From: Pseudomonas extremaustralis | Lineage (GTDB): Bacteria; Pseudomonadota; Gammaproteobacteria; Pseudomonadales; Pseudomonadaceae | Direction: 5' to 3' | Length of the DNA stretch: 64,000 nucleotides | Assembly (NCBI RefSeq): GCF_900102035.1 | Contig: NZ_LT629689.1 | Location: 806,001-870,000 of the forward strand | In this document: piece after piece, positions 33,790 to 48,965 of the stretch | Numbering within the stretch: position 1 is the first letter of the stretch | Layout: each line of letters opens with the position of its first letter | Notes under the pieces: generated by a model | The model's database searches: none | The model's input: only the letters and a program-made list of their open reading frames with translations | Told to the model about the DNA's origin: nothing | Made by a program: the position numbers and the translations under genes

Positions 33790-34455
33790 TCAGCGGCGCA
33801 GGTATGAGCCGAAGTCGATATCCCCGGCGCTGAGGATCGCTTGCACCCGGTTGTGCACATTCAATTTGCGCAGGATCGCCGACACATGGGCCTTCACCGT
33901 GGTTTCGGCGATCTCCAGGGTGTAGGCGATCTGTTTGTTCGACTCGCCCTTGGTCATCCGTTCCAGCACCAGCAACTGCTTGCGCGTCAGCGCCTGCAGC
34001 AGTTCGGGGGCGAAGCCGGGGTTTTCGTTCAGGCGTCGGTGGGTGCCGCTTTTCTGCGTGCGGATGATGTCCGGCGGCAGGTACACATTGCCGTTGAGAA
34101 TCTGCTGGATCGCCTCGGTCATCTGCTGGCGCGGCGAGGACTTGGTGATGAACCCCACGGCGCCATAGGTGATGGCTTGCAGCACGATCTGCTTGTCCTG
34201 CTCGGCCGAGACGATCACCACTGGGATGGTCGGCGCTTCGTTGCGCAGGTTGATCAGGCCGTTGAGGCCGTGCATGCCGGGCATGTTCAGGTCGAGCAGG
34301 ATCAGGTCGAGGTCGTCGTGGTCCTGGGTCAACGCCAGGGCACTGTCCAAGTCAGCGGTTTCCATCACTTCACTGCCGGGGAAACCATCGCTGATGACGT
34401 TGTGGATCGCTTCGCGAAACAGTGGGTGATCGTCGGCAATCAGGATTTTGTACAT
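33790..34455 (-). CDS. erbR: LuxR/NarL-type response regulator ErbR (AgmR)
   Basis: 221 aa. Receiver domain with phospho-acceptor Asp55 ([10 protein letters not shown]) and Lys in GFITKSS. C-terminal HTH ([47 protein letters not shown]). It corresponds to PA1978 ErbR/AgmR (PedR1 in P. putida), which activates ethanol and short-chain alcohol oxidation and PQQ genes. AAGGTGA precedes the ATG. It ends the leftward group after the CRADCW protein. It is a candidate for binding the CCAARGYA boxes of the locus. Confidence 0.92.
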
Positions 34456-35101: not shown

Positions 35102-35115
35102 TACTAAAGTAGTAG
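35102..35115. promoter_or_regulatory. CCAARGYA-like box upstream of the CRADCW protein gene
   Basis: TACTAAAGTAGTAG on the + strand (CTACTACTTTAGTA on the coding strand), 83-96 bp upstream of the start at 35019. It is close to TACCAAGGTAGTAG at 38907-38920. The target gene is leftward, so the motif may work in either orientation. Confidence 0.45.
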
Positions 35116-38884: not shown

Positions 38885-38916
38885 GCAGAAAGTAGCGCTG
38901 GGGCAGTACCAAGGTA
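38885..38916. promoter_or_regulatory. Boxes in the divergent ABC operon / pedS2 control region
   Basis: TACCAAGGTAGTAG begins at 38907. A weaker match, GCAGAAAGTAG, begins at 38885, again 22 bp away. The pair lies 58-89 bp from the leftward ABC operon start and 74-105 bp from the rightward small ORF, so it could control either. Confidence 0.45.
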
Positions 38917-38989
38917 GTAGCCACGCGCTGGTGATGGGGTCTTAGCATGGGTTACCGCCCCTTCACGCTGACTCGGGAGATGATCGATC

Positions 38990-39106
38990 ATGCAAATCCT
39001 CAAAGCATTGCTGTTGCCGTTCCTGCTGATCGTCAGCCTGATCGGTGTCGACAAGCTGCACGCGCCCCTGCAAGCGGTGAGCGCGCCCGCCCGCTTGGCG
39101 CACTAG
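38990..39106 (+). CDS. Small hydrophobic protein (38 aa) preceding pedS2
   Basis: ATG at 38990, TAG at 39104-39106, 38 residues. GGGAGA lies about ten bases upstream. The first half is basic then strongly hydrophobic (MQILKALLLPFLLIVSLIGV), the second half DKLHAPLQAV and SAPARLAH. It could be a single-pass membrane peptide or a cleaved leader. The kinase ATG follows after 2 bases, so the two are almost certainly translated from one mRNA. I do not recognise a family. Tight spacing and a sensible ribosome binding site argue for a real gene; conservation has not been checked. Confidence 0.55.
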   Translation: MQILKALLLPFLLIVSLIGVDKLHAPLQAVSAPARLAH

Positions 39107-39108
39107 GC

Positions 39109-40368
39109 ATGTCGGCCCTGTGGCGCATCAACCTGTGGGTGTGCGGTTTCTTCGCCTTGGTCGCCAGTGCCTGCACCGCTCTGTTGCTGCACCAGGCCCT
39201 GGCGGATGTGGAGCGCGAGCTGCAATCGGCCGAGGCGGTGGTGCATTACCTGAGCGAAACCGCCGAGCGCGACCCCGCCAGCCTGCAACCGCGCCTCACC
39301 GCGAGCCTGCGCCATGTGCGCGTGCATTGGCTGGGTCCTGGCGAAACCCTCAACGCATCGCTGCCGGACGGCCTGGATGCCTGGCTCGGCCGCCTATTGT
39401 TTGCCGAGGCGCGACGCAGTGCCCAGGTGCTGGACCTGCCGGATGGCCGCCGCGTGTCCATCGCCGTCGACCCTCGGGATGAACTCGACGAAGTCTGGGA
39501 CTCCCTGCAACAACTGTTGAGCCTGTGCGCCCTGGCCCTGGCCCTGAGCCTGCTGACCATTCGCTGGGCGGTGCGCCGTGGCATGGGCGTACTCGATGAA
39601 CTGCTGCGCGCCTTGCAGCAAGTGTGCGCCGGCCAGCTCAATGTGCGCCTGCGCAGCGCCGGTTCGCCGGAGGCGCGGCAACTGGCGCTGCATTTCAACC
39701 GCATGACCGGCGCCCTGGAGCAGGCGCGCACCGACAACACCCAATTGACCCAGACCCTGATGGCGGTGCAGGAGCAGGAGCGCAACCACCTGGCCCAGAC
39801 CCTGCACGACGACCTCGGCCAATACCTGGCCGGCATCCGCGCCCAGGCCTGCCTGTTGCGGCTGGTCACCGACCAGCCGCAGTTGCTGACGCGCACGGTG
39901 GCGCAACTGGAAGATCACTGCGACCACTTGCAGCAAGGCTTTCGCGCGCTGGTCCATGACCTGTACCCGGTGGCCCTGCAACACCTACCGATGGCCGAGG
40001 CGTTCGCGATGCTGGTGACCCAGTGGCAGGCCAGCCATGGCATCGATTGCCGCTTGCGGGTCAGCGCCGATCTGCCGACGCTGTCCGGGGCCAGCAAGAC
40101 CCATCTGTATCGCCTGCTGCAAGAAGCCCTGACCAATATCGTGCGGCATGCCGATGCCAGCCAGGTGCACGTGCGCCTGCAACATTACGGTTCACGCCTG
40201 CGCCTGTGGGTGCGCGACAACGGACGCGGGGCGCCCGCGCCGCAGCGTCCCGGCGTGGGCCTGTATTCGATGTATGAACGCGCGCGCTGCCTGGGCGGCG
40301 AACTGAAAATCCTCAGCCACCCCGGCGCCGGTTGGGCGCTGGCGTTGAACATGCCATTGGAGGCCTGA
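39109..40368 (+). CDS. pedS2: Membrane sensor histidine kinase, PedS2-like
   Basis: 419 aa. TM1 at about 8-28 and TM2 at about 136-155 enclose a periplasmic sensor of about 105 residues rich in Asp and Glu. HAMP-like segment, then HisKA_3 with His233 (LAQTLHDDLGQ) and an HPK7-type ATPase (DNGRGAPAPQRPGVGLYSMYERA). Its location between the ABC system and the pentapeptide/quinoprotein genes matches PP_2671 PedS2 of P. putida, which senses lanthanides and switches the cell between the calcium and the lanthanide enzyme. An upstream in-frame extension overlaps the small ORF and is unlikely. It overlaps the regulator gene by 1 bp. Confidence 0.88.
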   Translation: MSALWRINLWVCGFFALVASACTALLLHQALADVERELQSAEAVVHYLSETAERDPASLQPRLTASLRHVRVHWLGPGETLNASLPDGLDAWLGRLLFAEARRSAQVLDLPDGRRVSIAVDPRDELDEVWDSLQQLLSLCALALALSLLTIRWAVRRGMGVLDELLRALQQVCAGQLNVRLRSAGSPEARQLALHFNRMTGALEQARTDNTQLTQTLMAVQEQERNHLAQTLHDDLGQYLAGIRAQACLLRLVTDQPQLLTRTVAQLEDHCDHLQQGFRALVHDLYPVALQHLPMAEAFAMLVTQWQASHGIDCRLRVSADLPTLSGASKTHLYRLLQEALTNIVRHADASQVHVRLQHYGSRLRLWVRDNGRGAPAPQRPGVGLYSMYERARCLGGELKILSHPGAGWALALNMPLEA

Positions 40369-40994
40369 TGAATATCTTGTTGGTGGATGACCACGCGGTG
40401 GTGCGCCAGGGCTATGCCAGCCTCTTGCGGGCGTTGTTGCCGGCCATCGAAGTGCGCGAGGCGGCCAGCGGCGAAGAAGCCCTCAGCCGCGTGCAGGAAG
40501 CGGTGCCGAACCTGGTGATCATGGACTTCGGCCTGCCCGGCATCAGCGGCCTGGAAACCACCCGCCGCCTGCGCCAGCGCCTGCCCCAACTGCGCGTGCT
40601 GTTCTTCAGCATGCACGACGAGCTGCCGCTGGTGCGCCAGGCCCTGGATGCGGGCGCCTCGGGCTACCTGACCAAAAGCTCGGCGCCTGAAGTGTTGATC
40701 GAAGCGGTGCGACGTATCCTCGACGGCCACGCCTATATCGAACAGGCCCTGGCCACCGAACTGGCCTACACCCCCAGCGATCAACGCTTGCAAGGCATGA
40801 CGCCACGGGAGCTGGAGATTTTCCTGATGCTGGCCAGGGGCACCCCGACCCGGGCGATTGCCGACCAGCTCAATATCAGCAGCAAGACCGTGTCCAACCA
40901 CCTGACCTTGCTCAAGAGCAAATTGCAGGTCAGCTCCCATGCCGAACTGGTACACCTGGGGATCGACCTGGGCGTGGTGCGCGTGGCCGGCTGA
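40368..40994 (+). CDS. pedR2: NarL/LuxR-type response regulator, PedR2-like
   Basis: 208 aa. Receiver domain with Asp53 (LVIMDFGLPGISG) and Lys in GYLTKSS. HTH near the C-terminus (MTPRELEIFLMLARGTPTRAIADQLNISSKTVSNHLTLLKSKLQ). TGATG overlap with the kinase. In P. putida PedR2 activates the Ca-type ADH gene and represses the lanthanide-type ADH gene when no lanthanide is sensed. I therefore see it as the likely ligand of the palindrome found upstream of both ADH genes here. Confidence 0.9.
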   Translation: MNILLVDDHAVVRQGYASLLRALLPAIEVREAASGEEALSRVQEAVPNLVIMDFGLPGISGLETTRRLRQRLPQLRVLFFSMHDELPLVRQALDAGASGYLTKSSAPEVLIEAVRRILDGHAYIEQALATELAYTPSDQRLQGMTPRELEIFLMLARGTPTRAIADQLNISSKTVSNHLTLLKSKLQVSSHAELVHLGIDLGVVRVAG

Positions 40995-41830: not shown

Positions 41831-43726
41831 TTATTTCTGCGCGGTCTTGTTATCCCAGCTCGGGATCTTGAACACCCAGAACGACCCGCCCTGTGCCACC
41901 GGCTTGGTCAGCTCGGCCATGTCGCCGCCCCACAACGGCACCGCGCCGCCGTAGCCGACGGTCACGCCGATGTACTGCTCGCCATCCTGTTCCCAGGTGA
42001 TCGGCGGCGAGACGATGCCGCTGCCGGTCTGGAACTTCCACAGCTCCTTGCCGGTTTTCGCGTCGAAGGCCTTGAAGAAGCCGTCGCCGGTGCCGGTGAA
42101 CACCAGGTTGCCCTTGGTCGCCAGCACGCCGGCCCACAGCGGCAGGTGTTCCTTGTGCTCCCACACCACCTTGCCGGTGGTCGGGTTCATCGCCCGCAGG
42201 GTGCCGACGTGGTCCTCGTACATGCGCTTGATGCGAAAGCCCATGCCCAAGTAAGCCGAGCCTTTCTTGTAGTTGACCTCTTCGGTCCAGTATTCCTCTT
42301 TCCACTGGTTGCCAGGGATGTAGAACAGGCCTGTGTCCTGGCTGTAGGCCATGGGGTTCCAGTTCTTGCCGCCGAGGAACGGCGGCGAGACTTCCACCGG
42401 CTTGCCCTTGGTTTCGCCCGGCAACGGCTTGGCCGGACGCTGACCTTCGTTTTCTACCGGGCGACCGGTCTTCAAGTCGATGTGGCTGGCCCAGGTGATG
42501 TTGTCGACGAACGGGAAGGCGTTCTGCAGCTTGCCGTTGTTGCGATCGACCACGTAGAAGAAGCCGTTGCGGTCGGCGTGGCCGGTGGCCTTGATTACTT
42601 TGCCGTCCTTGTCCTTGTAGTCGAACAGCACCAGTTCGTTGTTGCCGGAGAAGTCCCAGGCATCGTTCGGGGTGTGCTGGTAGAACCATTTCACTTCGCC
42701 GGTGCTCGGGTCGACGCCGACCTGGCCGGAGGTGTAGAGGCTGTCGAAGTCGTGGGGGTTGCCGTCCTTGGCGGTGCGCGCCCAGGTGTTCCACGGGCCG
42801 GGGTTGCCGGCGCCGACGATGATGGTGTTGGTCTCGGCATCGAAGCTCGCGCTCTGCCAAGGGGCGCCGCCGCCGTGGCTCCAGGCTTCGACCTTGCCGG
42901 TTTCGGTGGTCGGGTCATCCGGCCAGGACGGCGCTTTGACGTCGCCGGTCGGCGTGCTGTCCTTGCCGTTGAGGCGGCCCATGTGGCCTTCCACGAACGG
43001 GCGCATCCACACTTCTTCGCCGGTGTCCGGGTCCCGTGCGAACAACTGGCCGACCACGCCGAATTCATCGCCGGAGCTGCCGTGGATCAGCAGCACCTTG
43101 CCGGTCACTTTGTCTTTGATCAGCACCGGGGCGCCGGTCATGGTGTAGCCGGCGGCGTGGTCGCCGAATTTCTTGTTCCACACCACTTTGCCGGTGTTTT
43201 TGTCGAGGGCGATCAGGCGCGCGTCGAGGGTGCCGAAGTAGATCTTGTCGCCGAAGATCGCCGCCCCGCGGTTGACCACGTCGCAGCACGGGCGAATGTT
43301 GTCGGGCAGGCGGTGGTTGTAGGTCCACAGGCGCTTGCCGGTCTTGGCGTCGAGGGCGAATACCCGGGAGTAGGAACCGGTGACGTAGACCACGCCGTCG
43401 CTGACGATGGCCTGGGATTCCTGGCCGCGCTGTTTCTCGTCGCCGAACGAGTAGGACCAGGCCGGGGTGAGCTTGAATACGTTCTTGTCGTTGACCTGGG
43501 CCAGCGGGCTCCAGCGCTGGGCGTTGGTGCCCATGCCGTATTGCAGCACGTCCTTGGTGGTCAGGTGATCGTTGGCGATGTCTTCCCAGGTGACGTTGCG
43601 GGTTTGCTTGGCCACCGGTTCGGCGGCGGCTTGGCTCGCGGCGCTGAGGGACAGGCCGCCCACCAGCAGGCAGGCTTGCAGGGCAAGACTTAAAGGTGAG
43701 AGGGCGGGTAGCGATCTTATTGTCAT
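41831..43726 (-). CDS. exaA: PQQ-dependent alcohol dehydrogenase, calcium type (ExaA/PedE)
   Basis: 631 aa. Signal peptide ending AASQAAAE (about residue 36). Eight-bladed quinoprotein propeller with tryptophan-docking motifs (for example [38 protein letters not shown]) and the vicinal Cys pair in [11 protein letters not shown]. The active-site region is [11 protein letters not shown]: catalytic Asp358 is followed two residues later by Ser360, not Asp, the mark of calcium enzymes. Oxidises ethanol and other alcohols in the periplasm and reduces cytochrome c550. Promoter region shared with the rightward cytochrome gene. Confidence 0.95.
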
Positions 43727-43811
43727 GGTTGCAGTTCCCAGTGGAGGTTTTGGCCTGCACAGGGTGGAGCGCCGGGGCCTGGGACGGATACGGAAAAACT
43801 CCCGCTGTGGC

Positions 43812-43826
43812 CGGGAAGACTTCCCG
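43812..43826. promoter_or_regulatory. Perfect palindrome upstream of exaA, shared with pedH
   Basis: CGGGAAG-A-CTTCCCG, perfect 7-bp arms about one base, 86-100 bp upstream of the exaA ATG. A degenerate copy, CGGAAAAACTCCCG, lies 21 bp closer to the gene (43791-43804). The same palindrome with R/Y change occurs before pedH at 47143-47159. Candidate PedR2 operator; see findings. Confidence 0.6.
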
Positions 43827-43863
43827 AGGTGCCGCTGTTTTAGGCGTGCCCCACAAGCCCTAC

Positions 43864-43895
43864 TACCAAGGGAGGATAAGGCGGCCACCAAAGCA
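43864..43895. promoter_or_regulatory. Pair of CCAARG boxes between exaA and the cytochrome gene
   Basis: TACCAAGGGA at 43864 and CACCAAAGCAGCATACGG at 43886 begin 22 bp apart. They lie 87-118 bp from the cytochrome start and 138-169 bp from the exaA start. The second box is followed by GCAT(A)CGG, as at 50794. Confidence 0.5.
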
Positions 43896-43981
43896 GCATA
43901 CGGCCCATGCCCCAGGGTTCCTAAGATGGTTGCCATAGCCTCTGCAATGAGGTTTTGCGTGCAATCCTGAGGGCAAAAATA

Positions 43982-44443
43982 ATGACAACAAAACACAATG
44001 CCTTGCTCGTCGCCGGGCTGTTGGCCGGTTTGATCGGTGCAGGCTCGGCCTGGGCCCATGGCAACGTGGTTCCGCAACCGGTCGAAACCAAGGGCCTGAC
44101 CTCCATCAAAGACGCCGGTGTGCCGGTCAACGAAGACGGCTGGGCGGCGGTGAACCCGTATCGCACCTCGCCGGAACATGACCGCGCCGTAGAGATCGGC
44201 TCGTCTGCCTATAACCAGAACTGCGCCGCCTGCCACGGCCTGGAAGCCAAGTCCGGCGGGATCGCCCCGGACCTGCGCATGCTGGATGTCGGCGAAGCCG
44301 GTGATGAGTGGTTCGTTGAACGTGTGCGCCACGGCGCCGTGCGCGACGGCCGCGTGTACATGCCGAAAATGGCCGACTACTTGAGCCAGGAAGCCCTGTG
44401 GGCAGTACGTACCTACCTGGACACCGTGCACGTCGAGGAGTAA
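43982..44443 (+). CDS. exaB: Cytochrome c550-type electron acceptor (ExaB/PedF)
   Basis: 153 aa. Signal peptide ending SAWAHG (about residue 26). Haem motif C81-A-A-C-H85 and axial Met in [11 protein letters not shown]. Periplasmic acceptor of electrons from the quinoprotein ADHs. GAGGG precedes the ATG at 43982. First gene of the rightward operon cytochrome / MoxJ-like / SoxYZ-like / metallo-hydrolase; the next gene starts 3 bp after its stop. Confidence 0.93.
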
Positions 44444-44446
44444 GCC

Positions 44447-45322
44447 ATGCGCCTGTTCGCTTATGTGCTCGGCCTGGCCCTGCTGTGTTGCCAGACGGCA
44501 CAGGCGCAGGTGCGCAGCTATGACCAGATGATCGCCGCCGGCGAGATCAAAGTGGCGGTGTACAAGGACTTCGCGCCCTACAGCTTCCAGGACGGCGACA
44601 CCCCACGGGGTGTGGACGTCGAGCTGGCCCAGGCGCTGGCCAAAGCGATGGGTGTGCAGCTGACCCTGATCTGGGCGCCGGCCGGGGAAAAACTCGACGA
44701 CGACCTGCGCGACTACATCTGGCGCGGCAGCCAGTTGCATAACCAGCAACTGGCCGACCTGATGATGCGCGCGCCCTACGACCGCAATTACGCGCAAAAG
44801 CGTAACGACCAGGGCGAGCTGGAAAACGGCCACGTGGTGATGTTCGGGCCGTACCAGAACGAACAATGGCAAGTGGCCTACGACCGCCGGCGCCTGGACA
44901 AAGTCGCCAGTGTCGCGGTGTTCGAGCAGCACCCGATCGGCGTCGAAGTCGACAGCGTGCCCTCGTTCTACCTGACCTCGGTGTTCAACGGCATGCTCGC
45001 CGCCAAGACCCATCACTACCCCGATGTGCCCCAGGCCTTTGCGGCGATGAAAGCCGGCGAAGTCGATGCGGTCATGGCTATGCGTGGCGAGATCGACTGG
45101 CAGGTGCATGAAGCCCACGACCCGCAACTGGCCCTGGCCGAGAACGCCTACCCGAACATGGGCAAACAGCGCTGGGAGATCGGCATGGCGGTGCACGAAA
45201 GCAATCGCCAGCTGGCCTATGCAGTGGAGGAGGCGCTGGAAGGCCTGATCCGCGACGGCTCGGTGCAAGGCATCTATAGCCATTACGGCCTGCAATACGA
45301 AGTGCCCGAAATGTACCAATAG
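44447..45322 (+). CDS. pedG: MoxJ/XoxJ-like periplasmic binding protein (PedG)
   Basis: 291 aa. Signal peptide ending QTAQAQ (about residue 21). SBP_bac_3-like fold ([36 protein letters not shown]) found as a companion of quinoprotein dehydrogenases (TIGR03871, MoxJ/XoxJ group). XoxJ is thought to help activate or mature the dehydrogenase by binding it in the periplasm; transport is unlikely as no permease is near. Corresponds to PP_2676. Confidence 0.88.
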
Positions 45323-45331
45323 GAGCAGGCG

Positions 45332-46105
45332 ATGATCTGGCGACTGAACGTGCGACTGAGCTGCGTGCTGGCCTGCCTGTTGCCGTGGGCGGCCCATGCC
45401 GCCGACGTCGACCCCGGCAAGGACCCGGTGCCCTCGGTGATGTGGGCCTTCTACCACAAGCAGTTGCTGGCCGACGCGCCGTTCGTGTTCGACGAGCGGG
45501 TCAAGCTGCTGGCGCCGCCGTTCGCCGAGGATGCGCGCCAGGTACCGTTGGAAATCGACGCCCGGGCGTTCAACGGCCATGTGGTGAAAATCCTCGCCTG
45601 GGCCGAGCTCAACCCCCTGCCGAAAATCGTCGACTTCCAACCCAAGGCCGGGGTGCTGCCGTGGCTATCGCTGCGCATTCGCATCGAACAGGCCACGCCG
45701 TTGCGCGCCGCGGTGCTCACCGATGACGGCCTGTGGCACGTCGGTTCGACCCTGATCGACGCAGCCGGCGGCGGCTGCACCGCGCCCAGCGTGGTGCGCA
45801 CCCAGCCGGGTTGGGAGGAGCACATCGGCGAGGTGCTCGGCGGACGCTACCCGCGCGGCGAATTCAGCCGCGTGCGCGTGCAGGTGGCGCACCCGATGGA
45901 CAACGGCATGGTCAGCGGCATCCCCGAGTTCTACATCAACCACGCGCAACTGCGTGGCAGCGACGACCGGGTGCTGGCCGAGCTGGCGCTGTTCCCGGCG
46001 GTCAGCGAAAACCCCAACCTGGCCTTCGACATCGAAGCGCCGGGGCCGACCCGCCTGGTGCTGCGCGACAACAGCGGCAATGAATTCGACGCAGCCATTC
46101 CCTGA
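45332..46105 (+). CDS. Quinoprotein-associated SoxYZ-like carrier protein
   Basis: 257 aa. Signal peptide ending AAHAAD (about residue 24). A SoxY-like domain with a swinging-arm-like motif [10 protein letters not shown] containing Cys149, followed by a SoxZ-like domain ([13 protein letters not shown]...[10 protein letters not shown]). In sulfur oxidation SoxY carries sulfur intermediates on a Cys of the motif GGCGG. Here the domains are fused and placed with PQQ enzymes (TIGR04557 family). No sulfur enzymes are near, so the cargo is unknown. GGAG precedes the ATG. Confidence 0.88.
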
Positions 46106-46121
46106 CCAGAAGGAGCGCGGC

Positions 46122-47054
46122 ATGCGCTGGATTCTATTGCTGTGCCTGAGCCTGAGCCTGCCGGCCCTGGCCGACCTCGACTACGCCCTCAAGCCGCGCC
46201 TGATCGCTGAGGACACCTGGCTGCTCGAAGGCAGCACCGACAACTTCGCCAAGTCCAACGGCGGCAACATCGTCAATACCGCGTTCATCGTCACCGATGC
46301 CGGCGTGGTGGTGATCGACACCGGACCCTCGCGGCGCTACGGCGAGGCCATGCGCCAGGCCATCGCCCAGGTCACCGCCAAACCGGTGATCCAGGTGCTG
46401 CTGACCCACCATCATCCCGACCACGCGCTGGGCAACCAGGCCTTCAAGGACGTGCCCATCGGCGCCCTGGCCGACACCACGCGGCTGCTGCACGAGCAGG
46501 GCGACGGCATGGCGGAAAACCTCTACCGCATGGTCGGCGACTGGATGCGCGGCACCGAGGTGGTGCTGCCGACCCAGGTGCTGGAGCCCGGCGTCATGCA
46601 TTTCGGTCGCCACGATTTACGTCTGCTCGCGCTCACCGGCCACACCGGCGCCGACCTGGCGATCCTCGATCAGAGCACCGGCGTGCTGTTTGCCGGCGAT
46701 CTGGTGTTCTACCAGCGAGCCCTCACCACCCCCAACAGTCCGGGGCTGGCGGTGTGGCAGGCCGACCTCGACACCCTGCAAGCCTTGCCCTGGACCTTGA
46801 TCGTGCCCGGCCACGGCCCGGTGGCCAGCGATGCGCAGCCCTTCGAGCAGATGCGCGACTACCTCGGCTGGCTCGACCAGCTGCTGCGCGACGGCGCCGC
46901 CCACGGCACCGATATGGCCGAGATGATCCGCAGCCCCATCCCAGAGCGCTTCGCGACCATCAACCTGAGCCGCTATGAGCTGATCCGCAGCGTCAGCCAC
47001 CTGTACCCGCGCTACGAGCGCGAACAGATGCAGCGCGTGGATTCGACCCGCTGA
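46122..47054 (+). CDS. Quinoprotein relay system zinc metallohydrolase
   Basis: 310 aa. Signal peptide ending PALAD (about residue 18). Metallo-beta-lactamase fold with H96-H-H-P-D-H101, later ALTGHTGADL and the GHGPV loop for zinc binding. Family TIGR04558, regularly coupled with the SoxYZ-like carrier. AAGGAG precedes the ATG at 46122. Together with the carrier it may form a periplasmic maturation or relay system for the quinoproteins; the reaction is not known. Confidence 0.9.
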   Translation: MRWILLLCLSLSLPALADLDYALKPRLIAEDTWLLEGSTDNFAKSNGGNIVNTAFIVTDAGVVVIDTGPSRRYGEAMRQAIAQVTAKPVIQVLLTHHHPDHALGNQAFKDVPIGALADTTRLLHEQGDGMAENLYRMVGDWMRGTEVVLPTQVLEPGVMHFGRHDLRLLALTGHTGADLAILDQSTGVLFAGDLVFYQRALTTPNSPGLAVWQADLDTLQALPWTLIVPGHGPVASDAQPFEQMRDYLGWLDQLLRDGAAHGTDMAEMIRSPIPERFATINLSRYELIRSVSHLYPRYEREQMQRVDSTR

Positions 47055-47068
47055 GCGGTCGTACCCGC

Positions 47069-47078
47069 TACTAAGGAA
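47069..47078 (+). promoter_or_regulatory. CCAARGYA-like box upstream of pedH
   Basis: CGCTACTAAGGAACTAGCAAT, with core TACTAAGGAA at 47069-47078, about 112-121 bp before the pedH start. It is a weak match to the locus motif, and no partner box is seen. Confidence 0.35.
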
Positions 47079-47142
47079 CTAGCAATCTCGATATTGCGGT
47101 CAATTGTGACAACTGCCCCTGCGCCCAAGAATCAGCACCAGA

Positions 47143-47159
47143 CCGGGAAAATTTCCCGG
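47143..47159. promoter_or_regulatory. Perfect palindrome just upstream of pedH
   Basis: CCGGGAAA-A-TTTCCCGG, perfect 8-bp arms about one base, ending 30 bp before the pedH ATG. It shares CGGGAA-N3-TTCCCG with the site upstream of exaA. Its position close to the gene would suit repression, that at exaA activation. No T tract follows, so it is not a standard terminator. Confidence 0.6.
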
Positions 47160-47189
47160 GTATAACAAAAAACCGCAGAGGTAGCCGTC

Positions 47190-48965
47190 ATGACCCAACC
47201 CGCACGCCGCCAACCCTTCGCCTTGAGTGTGTTGCTCGGTGCCATCCTGTTATCCGGCCAGGCCATGGCCGCGGTCACCGACCAGGACATCCTCCAGGAC
47301 CCGAAAAACCCAGGGCAGATCGTCACCAACGGCCTGGGCGTGCAGGGCCAGCGCTACAGCCCCCTCGACACGCTGAACGTGGACAACGTCAAGGACCTGC
47401 GCCCGGTCTGGGCCTTCTCCTTCGGTGGCGAGAAACAGCGCGGCCAGCAGGCGCAGCCGATGATCAAGGACGGGGTGATGTACCTCACCGGGTCCTACTC
47501 GCGGGTGTTCGCGGTGGATGCGCGCACCGGCAAGAAACTCTGGCAGTACGATGCGCGCCTGCCCGATGACATCCGTCCGTGCTGCGACGTGATCAACCGT
47601 GGCGTGGCGCTGTATGGCGACCTGGTGTTCTTCGGCACCCTCGACGCCAAGCTGGTGGCCCTGAACAAAGACACCGGCAAAGTGGTGTGGAGCAAGCAAG
47701 TCGCCGACCACAAGGAAGGCTACTCGATCAGCGCCGCCCCCCTGGTGATCAACGGCAAGCTGATTACCGGCGTGGCCGGTGGTGAGTTCGGCGTGGTGGG
47801 CAAGATCCAGGCCTACGACCCGAAAAACGGCGAACTGCTGTGGATGCGTCCAACCGTAGAAGGCCATATGGGCTATGTCTACAAAGACGGCAAGGCCGTG
47901 GAAAACGGTATTTCCGGCGGCGAGGCGGGCAAGACCTGGCCCGGCGACCTGTGGAAGACCGGCGGCGCGGCGCCGTGGCTGGGCGGTTACTACGACCCGG
48001 AAACCAACCTGCTGCTGTTCGGCACCGGCAACCCGGCGCCGTGGAACTCGCACCTGCGCCCCGGCGACAACCTGTATTCGTCCTCGCGCCTGGCGCTGAA
48101 CCCGGATGACGGCACCATCAAGTGGCACTTCCAGAGCACGCCTCACGACGGCTGGGACTATGACGGCGTCAACGAGCTGATCTCCTTCAACTACACCGAA
48201 GGCGGCAAGGAAATCAAAGCGGCGGCCACCGCCGACCGTAACGGCTTCTTCTACGTGCTCGACCGCACCAACGGCAAGTTCATCCGTGGCTTCCCATTCG
48301 TCGACAAGATCACCTGGGCCACCGGCCTGGATAAGAACGGCCGCCCGATCTACAACGAAGCCAGCCGCCCAGGCGCGCCGGGCAGCGACACCAAAGGCAC
48401 CTCGGTATTCGTCGCCCCGGCGTTCCTCGGCGCGAAGAACTGGATGCCGATGGCCTACAACCGTGACACCGGGCTGTTCTATGTGCCGTCCAACGAATGG
48501 GGCATGGACATCTGGAACGAAGACATCGCCTACAAGAAAGGCGCGGCGTTCCTTGGTGCGGGCTTCACCATCAAGCCGCTCAACGAAGACTACATCGGCG
48601 TGCTGCGCGCCATCGATCCGAAGACTGGCAAGGAAGTCTGGCGCCACAAGAACTACGCGCCACTGTGGGGCGGGGTGCTGACCACCAAGGGCAACCTGGT
48701 GTTCACCGGTACGCCGGAAGGTTTCCTGCAGGCGTTCAACGCCAAGACCGGCGAGAAGGTCTGGGAATTCCAGACTGGTTCCGGCGTGCTCGGCTCGCCT
48801 GTGACCTGGGAAATGGACGGCGAACAATATGTGTCGGTGCTCTCCGGCTGGGGCGGCGCGGTGCCGTTGTGGGGCGGTGAAGTGGCCAAGCGCATCAAGG
48901 ACTTCAACCAGGGCGGCATGCTCTGGACCTTCAAGTTGCCCAAAGAACTGGTCGCCAAACACTAA
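47190..48965 (+). CDS. pedH: PQQ-dependent alcohol dehydrogenase, lanthanide type (PedH)
   Basis: 591 aa. Signal peptide ending GQAMAAV (about residue 28). Quinoprotein propeller with tryptophan-docking motifs and the vicinal Cys pair [11 protein letters not shown]. The active site reads [11 protein letters not shown]: catalytic Asp323 is followed by a second Asp at 325, the ligand diagnostic of lanthanide-dependent enzymes such as XoxF and PedH. It would replace ExaA when lanthanides are present. AGAGG precedes the ATG. A terminator follows, then the aldehyde dehydrogenase gene. Confidence 0.95.

Follow-up and report, generated by a model that had tools for sequence, protein, structure and literature searches.

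The 64,000-nt window of Pseudomonas extremaustralis DNA analyzed here (contig NZ_LT629689.1, positions 806,001 to 870,000) carries the palindrome CGGGAA-N3-TTCCCG before two genes of a ped/exa cluster, exaA, which encodes a calcium-type pyrroloquinoline quinone (PQQ) ethanol dehydrogenase, and pedH, which encodes a lanthanide-type one. Judged from sequence, conservation and placement, the palindrome is very probably the operator of PedR2, a LuxR-type response regulator of the same cluster, which would act by a dual-position mechanism. The regulator is of a known type, and the operator would be new. The sites (no strand assigned) are as follows.

43812..43826, predicted distal PedR2-type operator at exaA (B1), CGGGAAGACTTCCCG; pattern match and conservation
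43790..43804, predicted proximal PedR2-type operator at exaA (B2), ACGGAAAAACTCCCG, in exaA sense CGGGAGTTTTTCCGT; 22-bp spacing and conservation
47144..47158, predicted PedR2-type operator at pedH, forming the core of the 17-mer CCGGGAAAATTTCCCGG at 47143-47159; pattern match and conservation

The initial annotation had reported perfect copies at both genes, and both were confirmed, the exaA copy 86-100 bp before the ATG at 43726 and the pedH 17-mer 31-47 bp before the ATG at 47190. Its statement that there was no third copy is correct for the window, which holds two exact copies only, but not for the genome, where two more were found. The degenerate second copy that it had noted near 43791-43804 does exist (43790-43804, 22 bp from B1) and is a conserved element rather than a chance match, being present at 74/74 loci. 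A PedS2/PedR2-like pair is encoded nearby as described, ending at 40994, 2.8 kb from the exaA site.

Under a dinucleotide model the expected number of exact copies is 0.006 for the window and 0.66 for the genome, and the chance of an exact copy is 2.5e-5 in the exaA-exaB gap and 1.3e-5 in the pedH gap. A chance origin of the palindromes was ruled out by these expected counts together with conservation in orthologous promoters. No enrichment was seen in the window at up to two mismatches (5 found, 4.4 expected) and no genome-wide excess at up to one mismatch (16, versus 19 for the reversed control), so that only the exact form at exaA and pedH stands out. The P. extremaustralis genome (6.67 Mb) contains four exact copies, two of them at exaA and pedH. 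The others lie inside a long coding frame that by eye is gamma-glutamyltransferase-like (L001) and in a GC-rich hairpin right after a frame that by eye is opgH-like (L004), and neither looks like an operator from its sequence setting. Plasmid relatives of the exaA-exaB gap were also sought and gave no match.

The same near-confinement to two genes was found when scatter was checked in 20 PedR2-bearing genomes, in which 31/35 exact copies were at exaA or pedH (assigned by coordinates) and the reversed control gave 5 copies. This count and the genome scan ruled out a common repeat. The four off-cluster exact sites of these genomes were fetched and a third conserved target was unsupported: G204 and G159 have the same site in common, which overlaps a reading frame present in both, that in G010 overlaps long frames, and that in G054 overlaps none of the listed frames.

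Conservation across Pseudomonas

PedH was sought in 249 Pseudomonas genomes, and 94 pedH upstream regions and 17 exaA regions were fetched. With the window included, 94/95 pedH promoters were readable, L133 being dropped since it had no usable pedH start. The resulting 112 loci yielded 74 exaA-exaB gaps, the other 38 having no adjacent pair, which was either absent or cut by the stretch. The palindrome was present in the orthologous promoters of both genes. At pedH all 12 arm bases matched in 84/94 promoters and 11 matched in 10/94, mostly 30-32 bp before the ATG. At exaA it was found in 74/74 gaps, and the distal site B1 is less strict than the pedH site, with 12/12 in 29 gaps, 11/12 in 35 and 10/12 in 10. 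The proximal site B2 started exactly 22 bp downstream of B1 in 74/74 (consensus CGGGACTTTTTCCGT in exaA sense), with 10/15 columns invariant across exaA loci. Both B1 and B2 were carried by 13/13 exaA loci (L135-L147) whose genomes lacked a strong pedH match. A second sample of 80 named loci was drawn by PedR2 (the best 80 of 374), with some overlap in species with the pedH and exaA sets; its 66 exaA gaps scored 12, 11, 10 and 9 of 12 in 30, 26, 9 and 1 cases, and the 46 loci that gave a pedH promoter were all 12/12.

Promoter layout and proposed mechanism

The pedH upstream region contains a conserved pair of boxes that we take as putative -35 and -10; these would place the start near 47139 and the palindrome at about +5 to +20, which suggests a repressor position.

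47104..47132, plus strand, inferred pedH promoter: TTGTGA (47104-47109), 17-bp spacer, AAGAAT (47127-47132), start about 47139; conserved spacing

The spacer from TTGT.. to AAGAAT was 17 bp in 90/94 pedH promoters, and AAGAAT started 17 bp before the palindrome in 91/94. TATAAC, beside the palindrome, is an alternative -10 box that we ranked second because the bases before AACAA vary among species while the AAGAAT distance is fixed; with TATAAC the palindrome would fall between -35 and -10, again a repressor position. A terminator was sought at pedH and none was found. At exaA the two sites span the region from 64 to 100 bp upstream of the ATG, with no clear -10 box, and a pair upstream of the gene suggests an activator arrangement. 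The initial annotation had proposed one site far upstream at exaA for activation and one near the start at pedH for repression. The positions fit, and the layout can now be refined to two tandem sites at exaA and a pedH site that would lie just downstream of the start.

In the mechanism that we infer, a dimer of phosphorylated PedR2 would occupy one CGGGAA-N3-TTCCCG site. At exaA two such dimers would sit side by side upstream of the gene, 22 bp or about two helical turns apart, and activate it, and at pedH one dimer would cover the promoter region, its most likely place being just past the start, and block transcription from it. The pedH promoter would otherwise be driven by PedR1/AgmR via a separate box. 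With lanthanide lowering PedS2 kinase activity, as in the published model, exaA would lose its activator and pedH its repressor. There is a parallel among NarL-type regulators (NarL, VraR, UhpA) that work from symmetric sites, as PedR2 likewise combines a receiver with a GerE domain and VraR and NarL are, by sequence, its closest relatives of solved structure. NarL activates from upstream sites and represses from a site over the start region. The palindrome differs from the NarL heptamer, and the regulators differ in their targets, which for PedR2 would be the two PQQ alcohol dehydrogenases.

Published genetics agree with this arrangement. In the available passages of PMC6115532, phosphorylated PedR2 of P. 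putida KT2440 activates pedE and represses pedH; the cluster is alike, the palindrome-bearing exaA and pedH correspond to these two targets, and the activation and the repression fit the site positions. A term search of the main text of that paper gave no occurrence of binding site, motif or palindrome, and the present analysis adds the DNA element itself, the tandem arrangement at exaA and the putative pedH promoter. No DNA site of PedR2 was named in the literature passages searched, so that direct and indirect regulation are hard to separate from them; the site may have been published before. In KT2440 reporters, as given in the accessible part of PMC13390443, PpedS2R2 needed PedR1 alone and PpedE needed both PedR1 and PedS2/PedR2, which fits the window counterparts, where pedS2R2 has the candidate PedR1 box (element A, below) alone and pedE has element A plus palindromes. 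The excerpted wording of a review (PMC12997753) is that under rare earths the system represses pedE and induces pedH. The rare-earth switch of Pseudomonas was already known genetically; a defined operator, a separate candidate PedR1 box and a putative pedH promoter would make it testable by a few point mutations, and the same elements are potential parts for lanthanide-responsive reporters.

Dependence of selective constraint at pedH on the PedR2 block

Eight genomes with pedH, chosen for having no exaA beside pedF (exaB) within the fetched stretch, contained no PedR2 (best match 36-37% identity) and did contain AgmR at 87-91%. All eight keep the pedH palindrome at 11-12/12, and in 6/7 of those searched the pedH copy is the sole exact copy in the genome, the seventh having none. 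As genomes that lack PedR2 and keep the site seemed to oppose a PedR2 operator, PedR2 was scored across the 249 Pseudomonas genomes at E<=1e-60, of which 80 were positive. The pedH site was 12/12 in 59/59 PedR2-positive genomes, whereas in the 35 PedR2-less genomes it was 12/12 in 25 and 11/12 in 10 (Fisher 2e-5). One genome counted as PedR2-less (G133) is 88% complete, has exaA and has a contig end near; moving it changed the Fisher value from 2.0e-5 to 1.5e-5.

Changes were then placed on a FastTree tree of 89 tips built from neighboring ped genes, 6 of 95 loci being left out for missing sequence and branch support not being used. When losses only were allowed, the pedS2-pedR2-pedD-pedE block appears to have disappeared on 16 occasions, most of the remaining cluster being retained, which amounts to a natural experiment on operator decay after loss of the regulator. 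On PedR2-positive branches there were 0 changes in the 12 arm bases versus 116 expected at the third-codon-position rate, and on loss or PedR2-less branches there were 9 (1 on a loss branch, 8 later) versus 45 expected. All 9/9 arm changes therefore fell on branches holding 28% of third-position change (binomial about 1e-5). In the central three bases of the palindrome, changes occurred in every class of branch. Three neighboring elements of the pedH promoter, pooled as a control and counted on 88 tips since one more lacked an upstream row, had 29 changes on PedR2-positive and 21 on other branches, compared with 0 and 9 for the arms (Fisher 0.002); a fourth element, ATAACAA, changed on no branch and was kept outside the pool. 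The constraint on the pedH site is, in part, ended with loss of the PedR2 block.

Upstream of pedF, PedR2-less loci without exaA had palindrome matches of 9/12 or less in 24/30 cases, and the 6/30 that keep 10-12/12 look like relics. Two PedR2-less genomes with no adjoining exaA (L046 in G040 and L070 in G177) have a likely relic of the exaA-side palindrome upstream of pedF, at 12/12 and 11/12, respectively.

The survey was extended to 293 genomes of the order, 32 of which matched PedH at E<=1e-180. At 24 pedH loci outside the genus, 16 had a palindrome scoring 11-12/12 ahead of the start codon; of the remaining 8, two had both arms with a 2-bp spacer, one scored 9/12 and five had no palindrome at the usual place. 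With PedR2 present the pedH site was at 11-12/12 in 10/12 of these genomes, and without it in 6/12. The exaA palindrome was at 10-12/12 in 11/11 PedR2-positive genomes at order level, while four PedR2-less exaA genes, with AgmR present, had best matches of 10, 9, 9 and 8 and no tandem partner, and an incomplete genome in which PedR2 was not found had an exaA match of 9. In three genomes of one other family (L337, L340, L347) the exaA upstream region appears by eye to hold three tandem copies in steps of 21-22 bp.

Several observations weigh against assignment of the palindrome to PedR2 or limit it. Absence of PedR2 means absence in a search at E<=1e-60, and some of the genomes are drafts. As PedS2, PedD and PedE disappeared together with PedR2, what the test implicates is the block and not PedR2 alone. 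The three control elements also exceed 28% of changes on loss or PedR2-less branches (44%, 37% and 47%), and one of them, GGCAATTGTTG, departs in 14/32 PedR2-less versus 13/56 PedR2-positive genomes (P 0.056). The pedH site is still perfect in 25/35 PedR2-less genomes, and after block loss its arms have changed roughly one fifth as fast as third positions (9 vs 45); this retention could be due to recent losses, to a hairpin or to a second reader. In the wider order a 10/12 match with no tandem partner lies near exaA in G327, a PedR2-less genome, and two distant genomes (G462, G437) have PedR2 and the exaA site but no pedH site, a pattern that points to exaA control as the more constant role. 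Finally, a consensus scanner called no sigma-70 promoter at pedH or exaA, so that the pedH promoter rests on conservation.

Possible alternative readers of the palindrome

PedR1/AgmR, which belongs to the same cluster and protein family, would be an alternative reader, with the palindrome serving alcohol induction rather than the lanthanide switch. It was found in each of the 8 PedR2-less pedH genomes that were tested first, in 17/17 Pseudomonas genomes checked and in 27/28 genomes of a further test, and in the accessible part of PMC13390443 it acts on pedE genetically, apart from PedR2. The assignment of element A to AgmR is also weak, with 20 matches versus 24 for the control in the P. extremaustralis genome and no PqqB motif near. 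Nevertheless, element A is a separate box that stands before exaB, pedH, pedA1/pedS2 and a PP_2666-like gene, and in looser form before pqqA in 2/3 genomes, whereas no exact palindrome was found before pedA1/pedS2, nor before pqqA in three PedR2-less genomes; exaB does not discriminate, as its gap is shared with exaA. Furthermore, the four exaA genes in AgmR-positive, PedR2-less genomes have no tandem palindromes, and the constraint at pedH relaxes on loss of the PedR2 block though AgmR stays. We consider an AgmR operator very unlikely. The claim of the initial annotation that this is a PedR2 switch site is supported at the level of sequence comparison, the palindrome being present in orthologous promoters and not scattered, and the arm changes favoring PedR2 over PedR1/AgmR.

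The pedH palindrome might instead act mainly in RNA, as a 5' hairpin that protects the message or tunes translation, with the exaA match inherited or accidental. The putative pedH leader folds into a 7-pair hairpin of -13.9 kcal/mol, with 9/200 shuffles as good, and persistence of the site in PedR2-less genomes counts in its favor. The exaA copies, located 64-100 bp ahead of the ATG, have the same letters, which a hairpin would not require, and letters, not merely pairing, are kept in other families; moreover, 9/9 arm changes on the tree were one-sided with no compensating partner. This explanation seems to us highly improbable.

A third regulator could also read the pedH palindrome in competition with PedR2, possibly the lanthanide-dependent pedH activator left open in the available text of PMC6115532, and this can be true together with a PedR2 operator. 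There would then be two readers at pedH, PedR2 as the repressor and a further factor, perhaps that activator, which keeps the site where PedR2 is gone; we regard such a pair as unlikely. The residual constraint after block loss, the perfect site in the 25/35 PedR2-less genomes and the single exact copy, at pedH, in 6/7 of those searched speak for it. A site downstream of the start would be unusual for an activator, and recent loss of PedR2 could explain part of the retention. In two of the neighborhoods searched with window proteins only (L277, L288), some unmatched frames resemble, by eye, regulators belonging to other families.

Element A, a candidate PedR1/AgmR box

The second element that recurs in ped promoters, element A (TACYAAGGNANTAG, or TACCAAGG...TAG), is itself an imperfect palindrome. 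The box differs from that proposed for PedR2, and like the exaA pair it is arranged as a 22-bp tandem at exaB. PedR1/AgmR (ErbR) would act through it before exaB, pedH and pedA1/pedS2.

43864..43899, plus strand, two element A copies in tandem at exaB, TACCAAGGGAGGAT and CACCAAAGCAGCAT, with 22-bp spacing; candidate PedR1/AgmR site; sequence pattern
43922-43927, possible -10 at exaB, TAAGAT
47069..47082, plus strand, element A at pedH, TACTAAGGAACTAG; candidate PedR1/AgmR site; sequence pattern
38907-38920 and 35102-35115, further element A copies

At up to two mismatches the window contains 7 matches versus 1.4 expected, not all of them in promoters; the box precedes the PP_2666-like gene, exaB and pedH and also lies in the interval separating pedA1 from pedS2. 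The distance from the TACCAAGG-like box to AAGAAT at pedH and from TACCAAGG to TAAGAT at exaB is 58 nt in both cases. Six neighboring stretches from PedR2-less genomes were examined, and three of them included the pqq operon; in two of these three the looser form was found ahead of pqqA. Genome-wide, at up to one mismatch, element A was not enriched in P. extremaustralis (20 vs 24 for the control), and none of those 20 places has a PqqB motif within its 3-kb locus. Given these two results, AgmR as the regulator acting at element A is a lead only.

Genes of the cluster

Gene names were assigned by likeness to the published ped/exa cluster, and the main genes are listed below.

41831..43726, minus strand, exaA / pedE, calcium-type PQQ ethanol dehydrogenase; TIGR03075, WDFS at the metal site
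43982..44443, plus strand, exaB / pedF, cytochrome c-550; TIGR04494 c550_PedF, above cut-off
47190..48965, plus strand, pedH, lanthanide-type PQQ ethanol dehydrogenase; TIGR03075, WDYD at the metal site
38947..40368, plus strand, pedS2-like histidine kinase; HAMP, HisKA_3, HATPase_c
40368..40994, plus strand, pedR2 / exaE-like response regulator, proposed to read the palindrome; Response_reg and GerE, co-occurrence
33790..34455, minus strand, agmR / pedR1-like response regulator, proposed to read element A; Response_reg and GerE

Both PQQ dehydrogenases fall in the methanol/ethanol family TIGR03075, and the second Asp at the metal site is what we take to be the mark of the lanthanide-type enzyme. 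Other members of the cluster are a SoxYZ-like carrier, a quinoprotein relay hydrolase and parts of a PedA1/PedA2-type transporter. The listed start of the pedS2-like gene (38947) is just 27 bp past element A, and the real start is probably the Met near 39109 (MSALWRINLWVCG). AACAA-rich stretches at 47161-47172 and near 43975-43990, by the start codons of pedH and exaB, resemble the CA motif of Crc/Hfq catabolite control.

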